Of a DNA stretch of 64,000 nucleotides, positions 2,960 through 62,372 are shown one piece after another; positions within the stretch are counted from its first letter, which is position 1; each line of letters starts with the position of its first letter. Source of the DNA: Chrysoperla carnea (taxonomy: Eukaryota; Arthropoda; Insecta; Neuroptera; Chrysopidae); NCBI RefSeq assembly GCF_905475395.1, contig NC_058341.1:65355501-65419500 (forward strand), in the 5' to 3' direction. The notes beneath the pieces are model-generated. The model was not told the origin of the DNA. It was given only the letters and a program-made list of their open reading frames with translations, and searched no databases. The translations under genes and the position numbers were made by a program.

Positions 2960-4520
2960 TAACTGCCTACATGTCTGTGGCTTGGTAGAACTAGACAAGT
3001 TATGCTCTTTTGTAAGTAGGAGTAGGAAGGGGACATTCTCTCACTTTCTTGCACGGTACCCAGTCACCGCCATATTGCTTATTTATTTACATGGCGCTGA
3101 GTATGTTTTGTATACATTTACAGGTCCTACCGAACAAGGAGTGTATTGTATTTTGTATCGAAGTATTTTGACCCGCTAAATTTGAATTTTTAGCTTGCTC
3201 ATAGCTCAAAGTGGGTGGAAATTTGTTATAAACAAATAAATTGTTTATACGGCCATAGCTCCTAAGTTATTGAAAATTTAGTATACAAATATTATTTTAT
3301 TCAAACATGTAAAAGCAAATATTTCCTTTTTTAATTCGTCTTGATAGGACCAATAGAACCGGAAATATGATCAAAGTTGTAAACAAAAATGATAATGCAT
3401 AAGATCGGCGCGAAGCGCTTGGTTTGATACGGCTGTAGATTGGCCAATTAAAAATATTTTTGTACTTTAAGGTACTCATTTTAAAAGTATGAGTCTATAT
3501 TTTAATTTTATACACATAATAATACGTTTTATGAAATAGCAACGAAACTAGCACGATTGTAAGTATTAAGTTTTCATTTTTCCGGCCCATTATTAATTTA
3601 TAAGTCGATAGCGAGTCTTTAGCGAAAGAAAATCTCACATAATTATATATGAAACAAGTGAAAACAATTGATTGAGTTAATTGTTGAAATACCATGCATA
3701 GTCAGTGTTGATTTTTATATCACATTACACATACAAACATGTGACATATACATAACTGATAATCAAGTATAGTACATATTATAAAATTTCCGCCTAATTG
3801 GCTCCCTCACGGGTAAACAGTGATGTTTACGAAAAAATGTTTCAAACAAAAGTTGTTTAATTTTTGATAAGGAACATTTTTTACATTTAAACTTTTGTTC
3901 TATCTCTAACGGTTTACAAGATGGGTCCTACGGACCCAAGACCCAATTGACCTATGATGCTCATTTACGAACTTGACCTCACTTTTTACGTCCTGAGTAC
4001 GCTGTAAAAAGTTCAGCTCGATATCTTTTTTCGTTTTTGAGTTATCGTGTCCACAGACGGACGGACGGACGGACAACCGGAAATGGACTAATTAGGTGAT
4101 TTTATGAACACCTACGACAAAATTTTTTTCCTAGCATCATTATTTTTAAGCGTTACAAACTTGGGACTAAACTTAATATACTGTGTATATTTCATATATA
4201 CATGGTATACAAATTTGTTCTAGTTAAGAATCTTTTTGTAGGCACTCAGTGCCTTCACTATTCCATTTGAGCTGTCAAATTGGTCAATGTTTTTTGTTTA
4301 CATATTAAAAATTGAAAAAATCTGAGGCGGAAAAAGTTCATTAATCATTAATTATGTATTCATTGTCAGGAACTATTTTTCACTCAAGGATTGTTCACAC
4401 AAACGTATTCATGTTTTATCAGGAAGCGCGAAAAAGCTAAAATGGCGTCAACTGGGTACATGCACCTACTGAACCAAAACTAATCCTAGATCGAGCATAC
4501 CTTGTCTTGTTCTACCAAGG
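2960..4520 (+). repeat. Dispersed repeat 'A', copy 1, split by an R550 insertion
   Basis: This is a non-coding dispersed repeat whose second copy lies at 28,777-29,700. Shared landmarks include a block around 'ggtcctaccgaac', 'ttgtttatacggc', a block that reads MSTLKYKN on the minus strand, and a terminal block with 'atggcgtc.actgggtac' and 'cataccttgtct'. This copy is interrupted at 3,652-4,210 by another repeat; the copy at 29 kb shows the uninterrupted state. The minus-strand open frames at 3,297-3,695 belong to this repeat and do not look like genes. Confidence 0.6.
3652..4210 (-). mobile_element. R550 non-autonomous element, nested in repeat A
   Basis: This is a minus-oriented copy of the most abundant repeat of the window, called R550 here. 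In forward orientation R550 starts with a short palindrome (ataccatgtatat-n-atatacatggtat), continues through tgtctgtctgtc, ggacgtaaaaagtgag, the near-palindrome GGGTCCtacGGACCC and aaccgttagagatagaac, and ends at tttgttttcacttgttt. It has no coding capacity. Comparison with the empty site at about 29,318-29,348 fixes both ends to within a few bases. No long target duplication is evident, which argues against hAT-type or LINE insertion. Confidence 0.7.
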
Positions 4521-6369: not shown

Positions 6370-7527
6370 ATGGCAAATGATTTTTTTGATGATTTGAATC
6401 ATGAATTTTATATCAAGGAAGAAAAAGAAGAACCAAACACAAAACTTATCAATAAAAAGGAATTATGTAATGAAGATGAAGACACAATGATATTAAATGA
6501 AGCAATTATTAAAACGGAACATGAATCAATTAAGACGGAGGAAATACTAGATGAAAATGAAAAATTATTTACTGATAATTATCAAACTATTAAAACTGAA
6601 CAACAATTAAATACTGAATTTATTGGTATTAAGGATGAAATATTTGATCAAAAGGTTTTAGAAAATCAAATAATTAATGATTCAGATAAGCTTTATTCAT
6701 GTGATCAATGTGATAAAACATTTTCTTGGAACAAGAGTTTAATTCGACATAAAAAATCTCATAATGAAAAAAAGACTTTTTCATGCGAATTTTGTGATAA
6801 AATGTTTAAAACGAAACAAAGTTTAAAACAACATAAACAAACTCATAGTGAAGAAAAGCCTTTTTCGTGTGATATTTGTAACAAAACATTCAAACTTAAA
6901 CAGAAATTAATTAGACATAAACGTACACATACTGGAGAGAAACCTTTTACGTGTGAAGCTTGTCACACATCATTTACTCAGCAACATAATTTAATCAAAC
7001 ATAAACGAATACATACAGGAGAAAAACCATTTTCATGTGAAGTTTGTGATAAAAAATTTACTCAAAAAAGTAATTTAATTGAACATAAACGAACTCATTC
7101 TGAAGAAAAACCTATTTCATGTGATGTCTGTGATAAAAAATTTAACAGACAAAGGAGTTTAATTGAACATAAACGAACACATACTGGAGAAAAGCCTTTT
7201 TCTTGTGAAATTTGTAACAAAACATTTAATCTTAAACATCATTTAATTCAACATAAACCTATTCATACAAGAGAAAAGTATTTTTCATGCGAAGTCTGTG
7301 ATAAAAAATTTAAGAAACAAAGTTGTTTAATTGAACATAAACGAACTCATAGTGGAGAAAAGCCTTTTTCATGCGAAGTTTGTAATAAAACATTTAATCT
7401 TAAACAGAATTTAATTGAACATAAACGAACTCATACTGGAGAAAAACCATTTTCATGCGAAGCTTGTGATAAAACATTTCGTTTCAAAAGTAATTTACAT
7501 CAACATAAACGAATTCATTCAACATAA
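6370..7527 (+). CDS. C2H2 zinc-finger protein with ten fingers
   Basis: This is an intact single-exon frame of 385 residues. Residues 1-108 are acidic and contain several IKEE/IKTE/IKDE motifs that match the sumoylation consensus; no ZAD, BTB or KRAB domain is present. Ten C2H2 fingers follow at about residues 109-383, joined mostly by TGEKPF or SEEKPF linkers, so the protein is expected to bind DNA in the nucleus. Predicted contact residues (helix positions -1,2,3,6) from finger 1 to 10 are WKSR, TQSQ, LQKR, QHNK, QSNE, RRSE, LHHQ, KSCE, LQNE and FSNQ. The linker after finger 1 (NEKKT) and that after finger 7 (TREKY) deviate from consensus. The ATG at 6,370 is preceded by an A-rich context (gaaaATGG). 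The 1.3-kb palindrome occupies the immediate upstream region, so the promoter must lie in the 147-bp gap, in the palindrome, or beyond it. The target is unknown. Confidence 0.85.
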   Translation: MANDFFDDLNHEFYIKEEKEEPNTKLINKKELCNEDEDTMILNEAIIKTEHESIKTEEILDENEKLFTDNYQTIKTEQQLNTEFIGIKDEIFDQKVLENQIINDSDKLYSCDQCDKTFSWNKSLIRHKKSHNEKKTFSCEFCDKMFKTKQSLKQHKQTHSEEKPFSCDICNKTFKLKQKLIRHKRTHTGEKPFTCEACHTSFTQQHNLIKHKRIHTGEKPFSCEVCDKKFTQKSNLIEHKRTHSEEKPISCDVCDKKFNRQRSLIEHKRTHTGEKPFSCEICNKTFNLKHHLIQHKPIHTREKYFSCEVCDKKFKKQSCLIEHKRTHSGEKPFSCEVCNKTFNLKQNLIEHKRTHTGEKPFSCEACDKTFRFKSNLHQHKRIHST

Positions 7528-19970: not shown

Positions 19971-20786
19971 CTAGCTGTTAAACCCGCTTCGCTGGGTTGT
20001 TTTTGCACATTTAAATATCAAAATTGTTAAATGAAAGACTTTTTTTTTAATTCTCTCTGTGTGTACGGAACAGTAAGATTTTTTTGGCCGATCCCAATAT
20101 TATGTCTACACTCTCTGTGTGTACGGAAAAGTAAGGGAAAGATCGATAGAAACCCATGGAACATTCCAGAATATTCGAGAAAGTTCTAGAAAATTCGATA
20201 GAAATCCATAGAACATTGTTCGAGAAAATTCTAGAAAATTCGATAGAAATCCATAGAACATTCCAGAATGTTCGAGAAAATTCTAGAAAATTCGACAGAA
20301 ACCCATGGAACATTCCAGATTGTTCGAGAAAGTTTGATAAAATTCAATAAAAATCCATACAACATTCGAGAATATTCGAGAGAGTTCTAGAAAATTCGAT
20401 AGAAATCCATAGAACATTCCAGAATGTTGGAGAAAATTCTAGAAAATTCGATAGAAATCCATGGGACATTCCAGAATTTTCGAGAAAAATCGAAAGACAT
20501 TTGCGCCAGTAGCGCCATCTAGTGAAAATTATACTATTGACAGTGGCGCCATCTATTGAAAATTATTAGAACTATTTTTTTAATCTATTTTCTATGAATT
20601 CCTAGATCATTTTTAATTCCACCCCCACCAAACTCCCTTATTCACAATGCACCCCCACCAAACTCCCTTATTCACAATGGAAGCCTAAGGGCTACCCAAT
20701 GACATAATCCCCTACCGAAGGTCAATGGTTAGTTTTAGGGAAAATCGGGGACATACAAACAAACACTCTCTTTTTATATATATAGA
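19971..20786 (+). mobile_element. Helitron-like element carrying a heat-shock-element array
   Basis: The element begins ctagctgttaaacccgcttc and ends in tttttatatatatagat. The empty paralogous site at 22,078-22,085 (acagaattaa) shows it sits between A and T without a visible target duplication, the insertion style of Helitrons; the termini are not textbook TC/CTRR, so class is inferred. Contents, in order: a duplicated ctctctgtgtgtacgga block, a 52-bp minisatellite (listed separately), two 'gcgccatctagtg'-like motifs, and a duplicated cacccccaccaaactccctt block. No coding frame. Decayed relatives with 'gcgaagcggg' ends occur near 8,060 and 48,070. Confidence 0.65.
20145..20490. promoter_or_regulatory. 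Minisatellite of perfect heat-shock-element repeats
   Basis: About seven copies of a 52-bp unit. In good copies the unit holds eight contiguous, perfectly phased HSF pentamers, GAAcaTTCcaGAAtgTTCga followed by GAAaaTTCtaGAAaaTTC, that is GAA and TTC alternating with exactly two bases between. Other copies carry four to seven, giving roughly forty pentamers in 345 bp. Three alternating nGAAn units already make a canonical HSE that binds an HSF trimer. The array is therefore predicted to bind heat-shock factor strongly. Activity, and any effect on genes, is inference. Confidence 0.7.
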
Positions 20787-20917: not shown

Positions 20918-21771
20918 TGGTGGGTCCACACGATACAGACTATTTTTTATTTATTTATTTTATTTAAGGTCGCTTTTAACGTCTAGGTCATTAGCGACCG
21001 CAGAAACTTATACATTATTTACATGTTTTATTATTAATACAAAATTTGTTCATATAATTAAGTCATTGTCCTTAATAAACTTGAAGAGACTCGGGAAATA
21101 TTTGGGATCATTGAGGATATCCTTTGCTTCCGAGGGTAATCCATTTTTGTTTCTTTGATGCTGGTATCCCTGACATTGTGAAAGAACGTGATTCACCGAT
21201 ATTATTGCGTTGCAGTGTTAGCATTGGTTTGGGTTACTTTTGGTTATGAGATGAATATGGCTCATGTTCGTGTGTCCAATCCGTAATCTAATGATTCTAC
21301 AATAATTTTGGCGGTCAAGGGTTGGTAGTTTGTCAAAAATATTATCGCGAATTGCATGGAGCTTAGTCGGTAAAAGTTGTAGCCATTTTTGGTTCCAGTG
21401 TTGCATTATTACATTTTTTATGTGTTTCTTAGCTTCACAATGTGTTACTGTTGTATTTGTTATATCTTCACTTCGTGTGGCTTCCTTAGCTGATTGGTCG
21501 GCTAATTCGTTGCCTTGTATTCCTTTGTGTGCTGGGATCCATGCTAGTACAACACTGGAACATTGATTTGTTGTTTCGTCTATGAGTTGCTGAGCTATAT
21601 GTACTAATGAATGGGTACTATTCTGATTGCTGATAGCTTTCAGTGCGGAGTTGGAATCGGAGTAGATGACGTTCTTGGATACAGACTATTGTTTGTACAG
21701 ATTTATGCCCGACTTATGTTTGAAAAATTTTATAGAAGTCTGTGTGAAGTTGGTATCGTGTGGACCTACCA
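20918..21771. mobile_element. Harbinger-like MITE (TTA target), split by a LINE
   Basis: The ends tggtgggtccacacgatac and its complement (gtatcgtgtggacctacca) form an ~19-bp TIR with one mismatch. TTA flanks both sides (20,915-20,917; 21,772-21,774). The paralogous empty site at 22,207-22,209 has a single TTA, confirming a 3-bp target duplication, typical of PIF/Harbinger elements. Without the LINE the MITE is only 108 bp. Confidence 0.75.
20945..21677 (-). mobile_element. 5'-truncated LINE with RNase H domain
   Basis: A 733-bp insertion flanked by the 13-bp duplication gatacagactatt (20,932-20,944; 21,678-21,690), inserted into the Harbinger-like MITE. On the minus strand it encodes an RNase H C-terminus: YSDSNSALKAI near the start, then WIPAHKGIQGNELADQSAKE, followed by a basic region and, after a one-base frameshift near 21,200, HCNAIISVNHVLSQC, the usual C-terminal zinc knuckle. 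The 3' end is an A/T-rich tail next to the target duplication. RNase H plus knuckle fits the I/LOA/R1 group of non-LTR retrotransposons. It is dead on arrival by 5' truncation. Confidence 0.85.
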
Positions 21772-22339
21772 TTAATCTTCTCTGTGAAGCAAAAATGTAC
21801 TGCATACTTGTGTATAATTCTACTATGGGCCTATCTAGTAATAGATGATCTAAATAGTGAGAACCACGTCTCAAAGTAGATTGACAAGGTTAATAAATGC
21901 GAAAGCATGGTTATTAATGCGCATGGCTTAATATACAACATAACATCCTGGCACGTATTTACAACATAATAATTGCCATTTAATAAATATTATTTTATAA
22001 TTAAACTTTACTAATCTGTAAAACAAATATTTCTTGCAAATGAAAACAACTACTAAAAATTTTTTAGAACTTTTATACAGAATTAATTATACAAACAGTA
22101 ACTATTGAAGCAGCTGACTTCCTTCAATACGATTATGCGCATTGAATACCATGCTTTCGTATTGTGTTTCTCCGTCAGCTGTTTGAATATTGTATTTTTG
22201 TCTTTGTTAATCTACTCTGTGCAGCCAAAATATACATGCTTGTATACGTTGGGCTTATCTATTAAAATATATGATCTAAGGAGTAAGGTAGTACGCCATG
22301 TTTATTTAAATTTCAAGAACCAAACACATGAACACAACC

Positions 22340-46620: not shown

Positions 46621-47199
46621 ATGAGTGAAGACGTTAGCGAAGATATTTGGACGCAATGGTTTTTGGACGCAATACGTAAAATACGATCACAAAAGCAACG
46701 ACCAAGCGTTGAACGTATTTGTCATGCAATACGACAACATCATGCGTTCCATGAAGACGTTGTAGCGGAACATTTAGAGGTGGCTGTTAAAAATGGATCG
46801 GTATTGAAAGTGTTTAATAAAGGTCAAAGTTCATATAAAGATCCTGGTGGTTTTGTACAAAATAGACAATTAAAAGTATCAAAAACATCAGATTTATCAC
46901 GTATCATTGCGAAATCTGTTGGCGAATTAGGGGAACGTGACGGGTCCACATTAAAAAGTATTGAGAAATTTATTTTACAATCACATTCAGTCAGTTTAGA
47001 TCCTCCTGACTTGGATTTAAAACAATTGTTAAGGGTATCGGCTAAACGAGCTGTGGCCAGAGGACTAGTCGTCCAAGATGGTAAACTGTTTAAAGTTCGT
47101 TTGATGCCCATATCAAGTCCAGTGACTTTAAAGAAAAAGGAATCAACTACTACATCACCCAATAAACTCAAAACACCTGAAATTGATTCTGCACTCAAG
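46621..47199 (+). CDS. KAT6: KAT6/enoki-type MYST acetyltransferase, first coding exon
   Basis: KAT6 proteins (MOZ/MORF; enok in flies) are nuclear MYST-family acetyltransferases that modify histone H3 with BRPF, ING5 and MEAF6. This exon encodes residues 1-193 and ends in phase 0 at CTCAAG|gtaaga; the open frame past 47,199 is intron. The start ATG at 46,621 follows stops and an A/T-only leader, with a possible 5' UTR acceptor at 46,466 (ttttttttacag). Domains: an N-terminal SAMD1-like winged helix (about 9-76; WFLDAIRKIRSQKQRPSVER, KGQSSYKDP), which in KAT6 binds unmethylated CpG DNA, and an H15-like winged helix (about 91-160; SLDPPDLDLKQLLRVSAKRA, ARGLVVQDGKLFKV). Both are diagnostic of KAT6. 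The double PHD finger and MYST domain must lie in later exons; none was recognised to the window end, implying a first intron of more than 16.8 kb. The 144-codon antisense frame is a shadow. Confidence 0.9.
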
Positions 47200-47237
47200 G
47201 TAAGAAATTCTTTTATTTTATTCATTACTATCAGTAA

Positions 47238-47741
47238 TAAGGTATCATCGTTAGTCAAAAATAAATCATGAAATTTAAAAAAAGTTAAAATTTATGTAAA
47301 AATAAACTTAAATATTCTGATTTCGAGTCATTAAAAAGCACACTTTTCTTTTATAATATTAAAATTATAAATCGTAATTTTTAAACTGTATATCACATGA
47401 CCTAAAACGCGGGTAAGCCCTGCTGTGATGTCATAGCGGTATGAGTCATAGACCATCAATTAGTTCAGTGTAGACAGCTAATAAAACATAGATAATAAGT
47501 ATTTATATATATTATATTCAGATGTCTATGAATATATCTGTCAAACTTATTTGTGTTATTTCGTATAATGATACCCATATTACGTCATCAAATTGGATGC
47601 CCGCGATTTTGACAGTTTAAAATTTAATTTAAGTTTTTGGCAAGAATGCGTGTGTATTTTTCCGAAATAAATTTTTTGTGGTTTTTTATTAGCAAAATCA
47701 ACATTTTGAAGTACTTTTTCAAAAATAGTAGAATATCCTAT
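47238..47741 (+). mobile_element. Second copy of the KAT6-flanking MITE, in intron 1
   Basis: Same element and orientation as 45,656-46,151, about 95% identical by eye over tgctgtgatgtcatagcggt and the 'ataataagtatttatatata' blocks, with worn termini (aaggtatcat / gaatatccta) and a mutated E-box (cacatg). It begins only 39 bp after the KAT6 splice donor. Confidence 0.75.
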
Positions 47742-61299: not shown

Positions 61300-62372
61300 A
61301 CCCGAAAACGGAACCATATTGAAAATAGTAAAAAAATAGAAAATAAGTGTATATGGGTGGGATATGGGTGCAAATCCGAGATCAAAAATGTGAAAATTCA
61401 ATATAGCGGCCGGCAAATGTCGTTTTTCCCTGAAAATAATCATTCTTACCACCATACTGTGGCAAAATAAAAAAGATAATGATGGGGAAATAGTGCTTTT
61501 AAGAGGGTTTTTGAAGTTGCTAAATACAAATCTGAATTCAAAAAAAATGAAAATTTTAAATGGCGATCGGAAAATTTTATTTTTAACCAAAAATACATGT
61601 CGCTAATAAATTTATAAAACGATGATAAAATTTACTTATTCAATATTAATTTTTTTACTTTTTGTTGAGTCAGTTCACTGTTTCTTGAGTCACTAATTTC
61701 TGGATTTCACGAATCTTCCAGGCGCTATTTTAAGTTTTCACATCTTGATTTGGCGGCCTCTAAAATCCCTTTAAAAGCACTATTTCCCTATTTTTATTTT
61801 TTTGTTTTGCCACATTTCGGTGGTAAAAAAGACTACAGTCAAACCTGGATAAGCGAGAGTTCAAGGCAGCACAATCTCATTCTCGCTTATAGAGGTTTCT
61901 CACTAACCCGAGTTTCTCGCTAGCGCAGGTACATAGGTAGCGTTTCTGTCTTATAGAGGTACGCAGCAATTATTAGTCACAGCAAGTACGAATGAAGTAA
62001 ATATATTTTTATTGTAGCCATAATTCCTCCTAAAGAATATAAATAAATAAAGCTTGACTGTCGCTTATAGAGGTATAGATAAGTAGCAGTCTCAATTACG
62101 GAGGTCCATTGACGAAAAACGGCTTTCTCTTATAGATGTTTCTGTTTCTCGCTAATAGAGGTTTTGGGAGCTTAAAATGACGGGTCCTGGCTATTACTCT
62201 CACTCATAGAGTTTTCTCACTTATCCAGCTCGCATTTACCCAGATTTGACTGTATTTTCAGGGAAAAACGACTTTTGCCATATTGAATTTACATTTTTGA
62301 ACTTGGATTTGGATTAAGCGACGTCGAAAACCTACCCACATAGACTTATTTTCTATTTTTTACAATTTGCAT
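61300..62372. mobile_element. Foldback element interrupted by a pogo/mariner-like MITE
   Basis: Arms at 61,330-61,540 and 61,768-61,835 plus 62,253-62,372 pair over aaataagt, 'attcaatat.gc', 'cgtttttccctgaaaata' and 'aagcacta/tagtgctt' blocks. The right arm is split by the TA-flanked element. Confidence 0.6.
61836..62252. mobile_element. 417-bp pogo/mariner-like MITE with TA duplication
   Basis: Ends cagtcaaacctggataagcg and complement (cagatttgactg) are flanked by TA on both sides (61,834-61,835; 62,253-62,254), as for pogo/Tigger-type MITEs. Variants of ctcgcttatagaggt occur at least five times inside, so the body is a degenerate tandem array derived from its end sequence. Confidence 0.75.

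Follow-up and report, generated by a model that had tools for sequence, protein, structure and literature searches.

The locus analyzed here raises the question of why a transposon in an insect genome should carry about forty heat shock factor (HSF) sites in perfect phase, and what, if anything, these sites do. The window, by which we mean the whole 64-kb stretch of Chrysoperla carnea DNA that was analyzed (C5:65355501-65419500), belongs to a genome of 559,487,470 bases in 337 contigs. HSF trimers recognize GAA/TTC pentamers in phase, and a canonical HSE comprises three or more alternating nGAAn pentamers with a 5-bp period. The window contains eight such runs within one minisatellite, whose features are as follows.

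20143..20488, no strand assigned: 52-bp minisatellite of about 6.8 units, an HSE array of phased GAA/TTC pentamers
20159..20196, no strand assigned: run of 8 phased pentamers (scan of the window)
20219..20241, no strand assigned: run of 5 phased pentamers, in a unit shortened by a 7-bp deletion (scan and alignment)
20256..20293, no strand assigned: run of 8 phased pentamers (scan of the window)
20365..20377, no strand assigned: run of 3 phased pentamers (scan of the window)
20385..20397, no strand assigned: run of 3 phased pentamers (scan of the window)
20412..20424, no strand assigned: run of 3 phased pentamers (scan of the window)
20432..20449, no strand assigned: run of 4 phased pentamers (scan of the window)
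20469..20486, no strand assigned: run of 4 phased pentamers (scan of the window)

Tandem Repeats Finder assigned the array (20143-20488) a period of 52 bp with 6.8 copies and 83% matches, and detected inside it a 10-bp subperiod with 28 copies of the consensus GAAAATTCGA (20159-20451). In one 52-bp unit, the series is GAA..TTC..GAA..TTC..GAA..TTC..GAA..TTC, and the 12 bp after it displace the phase. Within 20145-20490, GAA and TTC alternate at exact 2-bp spacing in runs of 8, 5, 8, 3, 3, 3, 4, and 4, and the cores in these runs of at least 3 number 38, all in exact 5-bp phase. The original prediction of some forty exactly phased sites in a transposon, with eight consecutive pentamers in the best units, is thus borne out by the 38 cores and the two runs of 8. 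Its further description of the minisatellite as consisting almost entirely of alternating GAA and TTC is right about the alternation and overstated as to extent, since 38 pentamers amount to about 190 of 346 bases and units 4 and 7 of another copy, L003, are degenerate (core changes are found in its units 4, 5, and 7). The 7-bp deletion, which breaks the phase of unit 2 in the window copy, is absent from all seven other aligned copies.

Chance does not produce such an array. Shuffling it with dinucleotides preserved (n = 5000) yielded at most 9 cores and runs of up to 4, and shuffled 52-mers repeated seven times (n = 20,000) gave no run longer than 4. The remainder of the 64-kb window contains two 3-runs only, at 61706 and 63341. 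Together with the reversed-pattern controls and the scarcity of the pattern in prokaryotes (41 stretches in 257 Gb), both described below, the shuffles rule out a chance sequence.

The minisatellite lies within a transposable element, delimited as follows.

19971..20786, minus strand: non-autonomous Helitron of 816 bp, 5'-TC ... CTAG-3' (ends and flanks)
20785..20786, minus strand: Helitron 5' terminal TC, the start of TCTATATATATAAAAAGAGA (sequence)
19971..19974, minus strand: Helitron 3' terminal CTAG, of the CTRR type (sequence)
19981..19998, minus strand: 3' subterminal hairpin AACCCAGCGAAGCGGGTT (minimum-energy DNA fold, also found in the stem search)
22053..22125, plus strand: related target sequence without the Helitron, i.e., an empty site (match to the joined flanks)

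This element is a classic, textbook non-autonomous Helitron, present in the window as one damaged copy. It has TC and CTRR ends and is inserted between A and T without target duplication: on the plus strand it is flanked by a host A (19970) and a host T (20787), and the empty site at 22053-22125, located in the same window, runs uninterrupted through the insertion point. The stem AACCC.GC/GCGGGTT stands a few bases before CTAG, as in other Helitrons, with a folding energy that is ordinary (z -0.77; 40 of 200 shuffles equal). We call the window copy non-autonomous because no open reading frame (ORF) of at least 110 aa is listed in it. The termini recur elsewhere in the genome. The 3' end is present in 28 of 33 loci examined and is preceded by A (plus strand) in all 28; the 5' end was recognized in 24 of these 28 copies, with T next in 23. 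In a separate sample of copies collected by their flank (see below), seven of which are shared with the 33-locus set, A precedes the element in 26 of 27 cases and T follows it in 23 of 24. The ends, the A|T insertion, the empty site, and the many copies place the minisatellite firmly within a Helitron, as had been proposed. Within the window copy, a 30-bp stretch is exactly tandem-duplicated at 20620-20679; it is single in the aligned copies L003 and L008.

Several other features were seen around the element. Adjoining it on the minus strand is an RNase H fragment (21221-21685; PF00075, E 3e-8), likely part of a retrotransposon remnant; the segment that contains it has an inverted repeat at its two ends (20917-20941/21748-21772). 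Just left of the Helitron lie two fold-back-like inverted repeats, 18635-18734/18863-18962 (100 nt, 96%) and 19628-19742/19766-19880 (115 nt, 90%). The plus strand of the window also carries a C2H2 zinc-finger gene with repeated fingers (6370-7527) and a KAT6-type acetyltransferase exon with a SAMD1-like winged helix and a linker-histone domain (46621-47271). Among the 120 matches listed for this exon, all those labeled with an organism are from insects.

A search of the genome with the element, in which the best 40 of 312 candidates were scored, gave matches on contigs C1 to C6; these contigs measure 39 to 140 Mb each and together make up 527 of 559 Mb. A 28-bp pattern spanning the left array boundary has 118 + 120 = 238 exact matches (reversed control, 0), which we read as at least 238 family copies. 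A second estimate of about 310 is obtained when the 1828 seven-pentamer matches reported below are divided by the roughly six found per copy among 17 listed loci, so that array-bearing copies perhaps number 240 to 310. For a sample independent of the array, the 173-bp 3'-side flank served as the query, and 27 copies were fetched from the best 40 of 312. Since this flank is 100% identical to that of the window in all 40 copies listed, the sample represents young copies. A run of at least six pentamers was kept in all 27, as had been anticipated for other copies of the family; their phased cores number 13 to 63 per copy (median, 35), and the number of units, estimated roughly from occurrences of CATTC, ranges from about 2 to 11. 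Among copies selected by their array, the lowest value was 11 phased cores, in L053 and L059. The commonest run pattern, 8, 8, 8, 7, 8, 5, occurs in 8 of 25 distinct loci, and relative to this full-size pattern the window copy is damaged. Private divergence among copies is about 0.7%, which indicates a young burst. At C6:9727251-9728223, family arrays lie close together in opposite orientations. Spread of the family by viruses was considered and rejected, as a 23-bp pattern from the 3' end had 0 matches in viral contigs.

The contribution of this family to the long phased sites of the genome is large. The seven-pentamer pattern has 914 + 914 = 1828 matches genome-wide (reversed control, 0 + 0), and the four-pentamer pattern occurs at 3657 places when GAA comes first (control, 65) and at 2879 when TTC does (control, 68). 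By hand count of plus-strand four-pentamer places, 48 of 50 and 42 of 50 fell inside family-like arrays; the count covers about the first 6.6 Mb of C1 as listed, a family-rich stretch. Because of this richness, and because the ten listed places outside the family (nine sites) exceed the control expectation, the share is best stated as most and not all: the family holds most of the genome's long phased sites. Enrichment of HSEs inside the family is evident both from the pattern counts against their controls and from the cores per copy.

The nine non-family four-pentamer sites on C1 (L060, L061/L145, two in L139, and L140 to L144) gave only short BLAST matches to the element, the best being of 30 bases (E 1e-4, L140) and 29 bases (E 4e-4, L142). 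The idea that they are HSP promoters was dropped, since no HSP was recognized in the ORF lists of the nine sites. L139 (C1:204000-209000) contains a local duplication of a repeat, with three sets of phased pentamers (runs of 4, 3, and 4); BLAST gave no clear Helitron match there, and no HSP gene was recognized in its ORF list. In L142 (C1:1570000-1573000), a stretch of 28 bases (2809-2836) matches the Helitron 3' end at 86% (E 0.017), possibly a trace of an older relative, and a C2H2 zinc-finger ORF lies between this stretch and the four-pentamer site.

How such an array might arise can be judged from genomes in which HSF plays no part. Prokaryotes are not known to have HSF. The seven-pentamer scan that found 41 stretches in prokaryote genomes also found 9 in viral contigs, and decamer arrays of 19 and 20 phased GAA/TTC pentamers are present in Neolewinella (L084) and Methanosarcina (L091), respectively. 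Many of the 50 control stretches are pure decamer repeats, with spacers identical throughout the longest run in 21 of 50. Since the prokaryote stretches show such pure repeats, perfect HSE-like arrays can arise by decamer duplication without HSF. A random decamer of the window's composition has a 0.34% chance of spelling GAAnnTTCnn, and the 10-bp subperiod of the array likewise points to a decamer. The simplest and most likely origin is therefore the amplification of one GAAnnTTCnn decamer, followed by Helitron bursts. A plain recent decamer expansion explains poorly that the unit's spacers are more diverged than those of 48 of the 50 controls: the best Helitron unit has a spacer heterogeneity of 0.58, which is higher in 2 of 50 controls, and all of its 24 core bases are intact. 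Diverged spacers next to intact cores give a weak hint that the cores may have been constrained while the unit formed, a hint weakened in that the way runs are defined makes the cores invariant in all of those compared, certain controls have the same run in common, and the control stretches come from other types of genome.

Among the present copies, purifying selection would be expected to make cores change less than spacers, and they do not. Over 37 arrays, private substitutions numbered 41/5692 in cores and 48/6800 in spacers (Fisher p = 1.0), a comparison with the power to exclude strong constraint and not slight constraint; 53 loci had been tried, 48 had a recognized 3' end, 16 were dropped, and arrays were tiled with the units of L003. 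The flank-sampled subset (core 21/3014, spacer 34/3608, p = 0.28) and the remaining copies (core 20/2678, spacer 14/3192, p = 0.17) agree, as do all mismatches of the tiled set (core 74/5692, spacer 86/6800). When 32 copies were aligned to L003 by a simpler procedure, private differences were 23/3518 in cores, 41/6192 in spacers, and 74/11339 in flanks. When shared differences are included in that alignment, the counts become 23/3518, 72/6192, and 264/11339 and are lower in cores; we prefer the private counts because 33 of the 72 spacer differences come from two misaligned copies with missing units (L046 and L065) and because shared differences hinge on L003 as the reference. Between the seven units of L003 itself, the core/spacer contrast is too small for use.

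The present copies thus show no sign of constraint on the cores, and, with private substitutions alike in cores, spacers, and flanks, nothing shows that these copies are kept for function. The expectation in the original prediction that mutations mostly spare the spacing is not borne out by these counts. Of the two causes that it offered for the regularity of the units, amplification of one HSE-rich unit fits, and selection on the present copies finds no support in the private rates, the flanks included. Exact motif phasing in a minisatellite is, by itself, not evidence of selection.

The element, its termini, its mode of insertion, its arrays, and their abundance among long phased sites are directly observed, and a rolling-circle family has carried ready-made arrays of HSF pentamers to hundreds of places. 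For what follows from this, we lean with modest confidence toward a young non-autonomous Helitron family whose array grew from a decamer, whose copies in open chromatin load HSF, and whose neighbors may in some cases have become heat-inducible. One GAAnnTTCnn decamer would have been tandemly duplicated and then the 52-bp unit in turn, with unit number drifting after that expansion, and rolling-circle transposition would have spread the array over contigs C1 to C6. On heat shock, arrays in open chromatin would each load several HSF trimers, and copies near promoters may render genes heat-inducible, as in Caenorhabditis. Loading is to be expected in open chromatin because the pentamers are the HSF recognition sequence whatever their origin, and extended nematode HSEs are reported to bind HSF-1 DNA-binding domains cooperatively, up to five (excerpts of PMC9148306). 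From HSF biochemistry, binding of accessible copies has good odds. By analogy with other systems, some copies may confer heat inducibility on their neighbors, at lower odds, and the odds that the array might benefit the transposon itself are lower still.

Candidate neighbors were sought in 20 six-kb loci, in two of which (L046 and L057) a likely coding sequence near the copy was recognized; four ORFs, from four of the 20 loci, were compared with Pfam. In L057 (C5:74525200-74531200), a copy lies about 2.2 kb away on the upstream side of a TIP49/RuvB-like C-terminal exon, perhaps within an intron. In L046, a 679-codon open frame about 0.8 kb from the copy matched no Pfam family above the cut-off.

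The best-surviving alternative, possible in our view though rather unlikely, is that the array is an unremarkable Helitron minisatellite that has GAAnnTTCnn as its decamer by coincidence, that its copies sit in silent chromatin, and that HSF is irrelevant to them. The equal private substitution of cores, spacers, and flanks, the apparent drift in unit number, and the occurrence of the same pattern in prokaryote contigs are all consistent with it, and central tandem repeats are known in Helitrons elsewhere (excerpts of PMC9957191, PMC7492417, and PMC11431837). Copies are also enriched at the ends of contig C1, where 55 of 78 listed boundaries lie within 20 Mb of one end or the other against 22.3 expected (a count for C1 alone); this crowding may reflect silent chromatin and, if so, would favor this alternative. 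However, sites need not be under selection to be bound, a minimal HSE has three pentamers against the eight perfect ones here, and the L057 copy, upstream of the TIP49/RuvB-like exon, has a gene nearby.

A somewhat more doubtful proposal is that selection in the transposing lineage favored the array as a heat switch, HSF-driven transcription of the element or of an autonomous partner leading to transposition, as has been proposed for Caenorhabditis Helitrons and ONSEN. The best unit, with its 24 core bases kept and its spacers differing, would fit such a history, as would the long runs kept in all 27 flank-sampled copies. Helitron1_CE RNA is reported to be heat-induced under HSF-1 (excerpts of PMC6765114), and a wheat Helitron to be mobilized by heat together with reduced methylation (excerpts of PMC13286980). 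However, the copies, being non-autonomous, can do without their own promoter, the hint of core conservation suffers from the construction of the runs and the foreign controls described above, and cores have changed in three units of L003. We consider it unlikely that the insect has, in a stronger form of this idea, independently evolved a Helitron-HSF partnership in which HSF drives expression or mobilization of the family and the insertions, holding most of the long phased sites, have added genes to the heat shock response.

Action through another factor, e.g., a TEAD/Scalloped-type protein, or as a repeated palindrome that aids Helitron replication, appears very improbable. The motif ACATTCCA, which we take to be of the TEAD/Scalloped type, occurs exactly five times in the window array, yet an 8-base motif present once per unit accounts for much less of the unit than the 24 phased core bases; likewise, GAACATTC..GAATGTTC forms a short hairpin in the fold, but its z-score is -1.54 and 18 of 200 shuffles fold equally. 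Just as improbable is an HSF sink, with thousands of sites titrating the factor so that the heat shock response is weakened or comes later, or with stress foci like those of satellite III. The many seven- and four-pentamer places (914 + 914 and 3657 + 2879) and the human satellite III precedent (cf. PMC11431837 and PMC9032817) speak for it, but the copies are dispersed and short and do not form a single block.

Having weighed these alternatives, we return to the favored reading, a decamer-born array spread by a young Helitron family, and compare it with known systems. Human satellite III is bound by HSF1 in nuclear stress bodies and is a pericentric block of short repeats. It resembles the insect family as repetitive DNA that offers a large HSF target and differs as a pericentric block, as opposed to a dispersed transposon array with perfect inverted pentamers. 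Transposon insertions into Drosophila HSP promoters have been described (Walser et al. 2006, cited in excerpts of PMC13104882), a case distinct from that of transposons carrying HSEs.

Among Helitrons, those of the Drosophila montium group (excerpts of PMC9957191) and of oyster (excerpts of PMC7492417), which feed satellite DNA, are alike in having central tandem repeats; they differ in that these excerpts note no tie to HSE phasing. Insect Hel1/Lep1-type Helitrons (excerpts of PMC6544945) share, by description, the 5' TC, the 3' CTRR, the hairpin near the 3' end, and insect hosts, and the terms "heat shock" and "tandem repeat" are absent from the main text of that report on them. In plants, the strong element of ONSEN arose by duplication of a TTCnnGAA proto-site, so that ONSEN/COPIA78 and other heat-responsive Brassicaceae COPIA elements offer a parallel for a transposon HSF site made by proto-site duplication; the gain of such sites is often species-specific, and they can be lost by mutation (excerpts of PMC5059998). 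ONSEN differs as an LTR retrotransposon that has four motifs next to one another and is demonstrably induced by heat, whereas the insect family is a Helitron with up to eight pentamers per unit and dozens per copy, and is known from its sequence.

The closest parallel, that with nematodes, is real. HSE-bearing Helitrons of Caenorhabditis (Helitron1_CE, HelitronY1_CE, HelitronY1A_CE, HelitronY4_CE, and Helitron2_CE) are described in excerpts of PMC6927752, and Caenorhabditis Helitrons are reported to be HSF-bound and to confer heat inducibility on neighboring genes (excerpts of PMC6927752 and PMC6765114). As in the insect family, Helitrons with dense tandem HSEs provide much of the HSE content of the genome while occupying little of its length. 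The likeness is one of kind, drawn from descriptions; the insect family differs in its host and in carrying a 52-bp minisatellite in a non-autonomous element of about 500 to 1000 bp, and it is known here from its sequence. According to the same excerpts of PMC6927752, a scan of the UCSC genomes with annotated Helitrons found HSE enrichment in three Caenorhabditis species only, with a motif printed as NGAANNTCCNNGGAN, the reach of this negative result depending on the motif really used. Because the association was found in Caenorhabditis alone among the genomes scanned there, the insect case is the more notable. No precedent for an insect Helitron with HSEs was found among the literature matches listed, with subscription papers mostly outside them. 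The parts are known, and their combination in an insect, at such density and copy number, appears to be new. HSE-loaded Helitrons have been described as possibly restricted to Caenorhabditis (excerpts of PMC6927752), and the insect family would show that they have originated repeatedly. A rewired heat shock response could then come from the tandem duplication of one decamer in a transposon, and hundreds of near-identical insertions with widely varied pentamer numbers provide a natural experiment.
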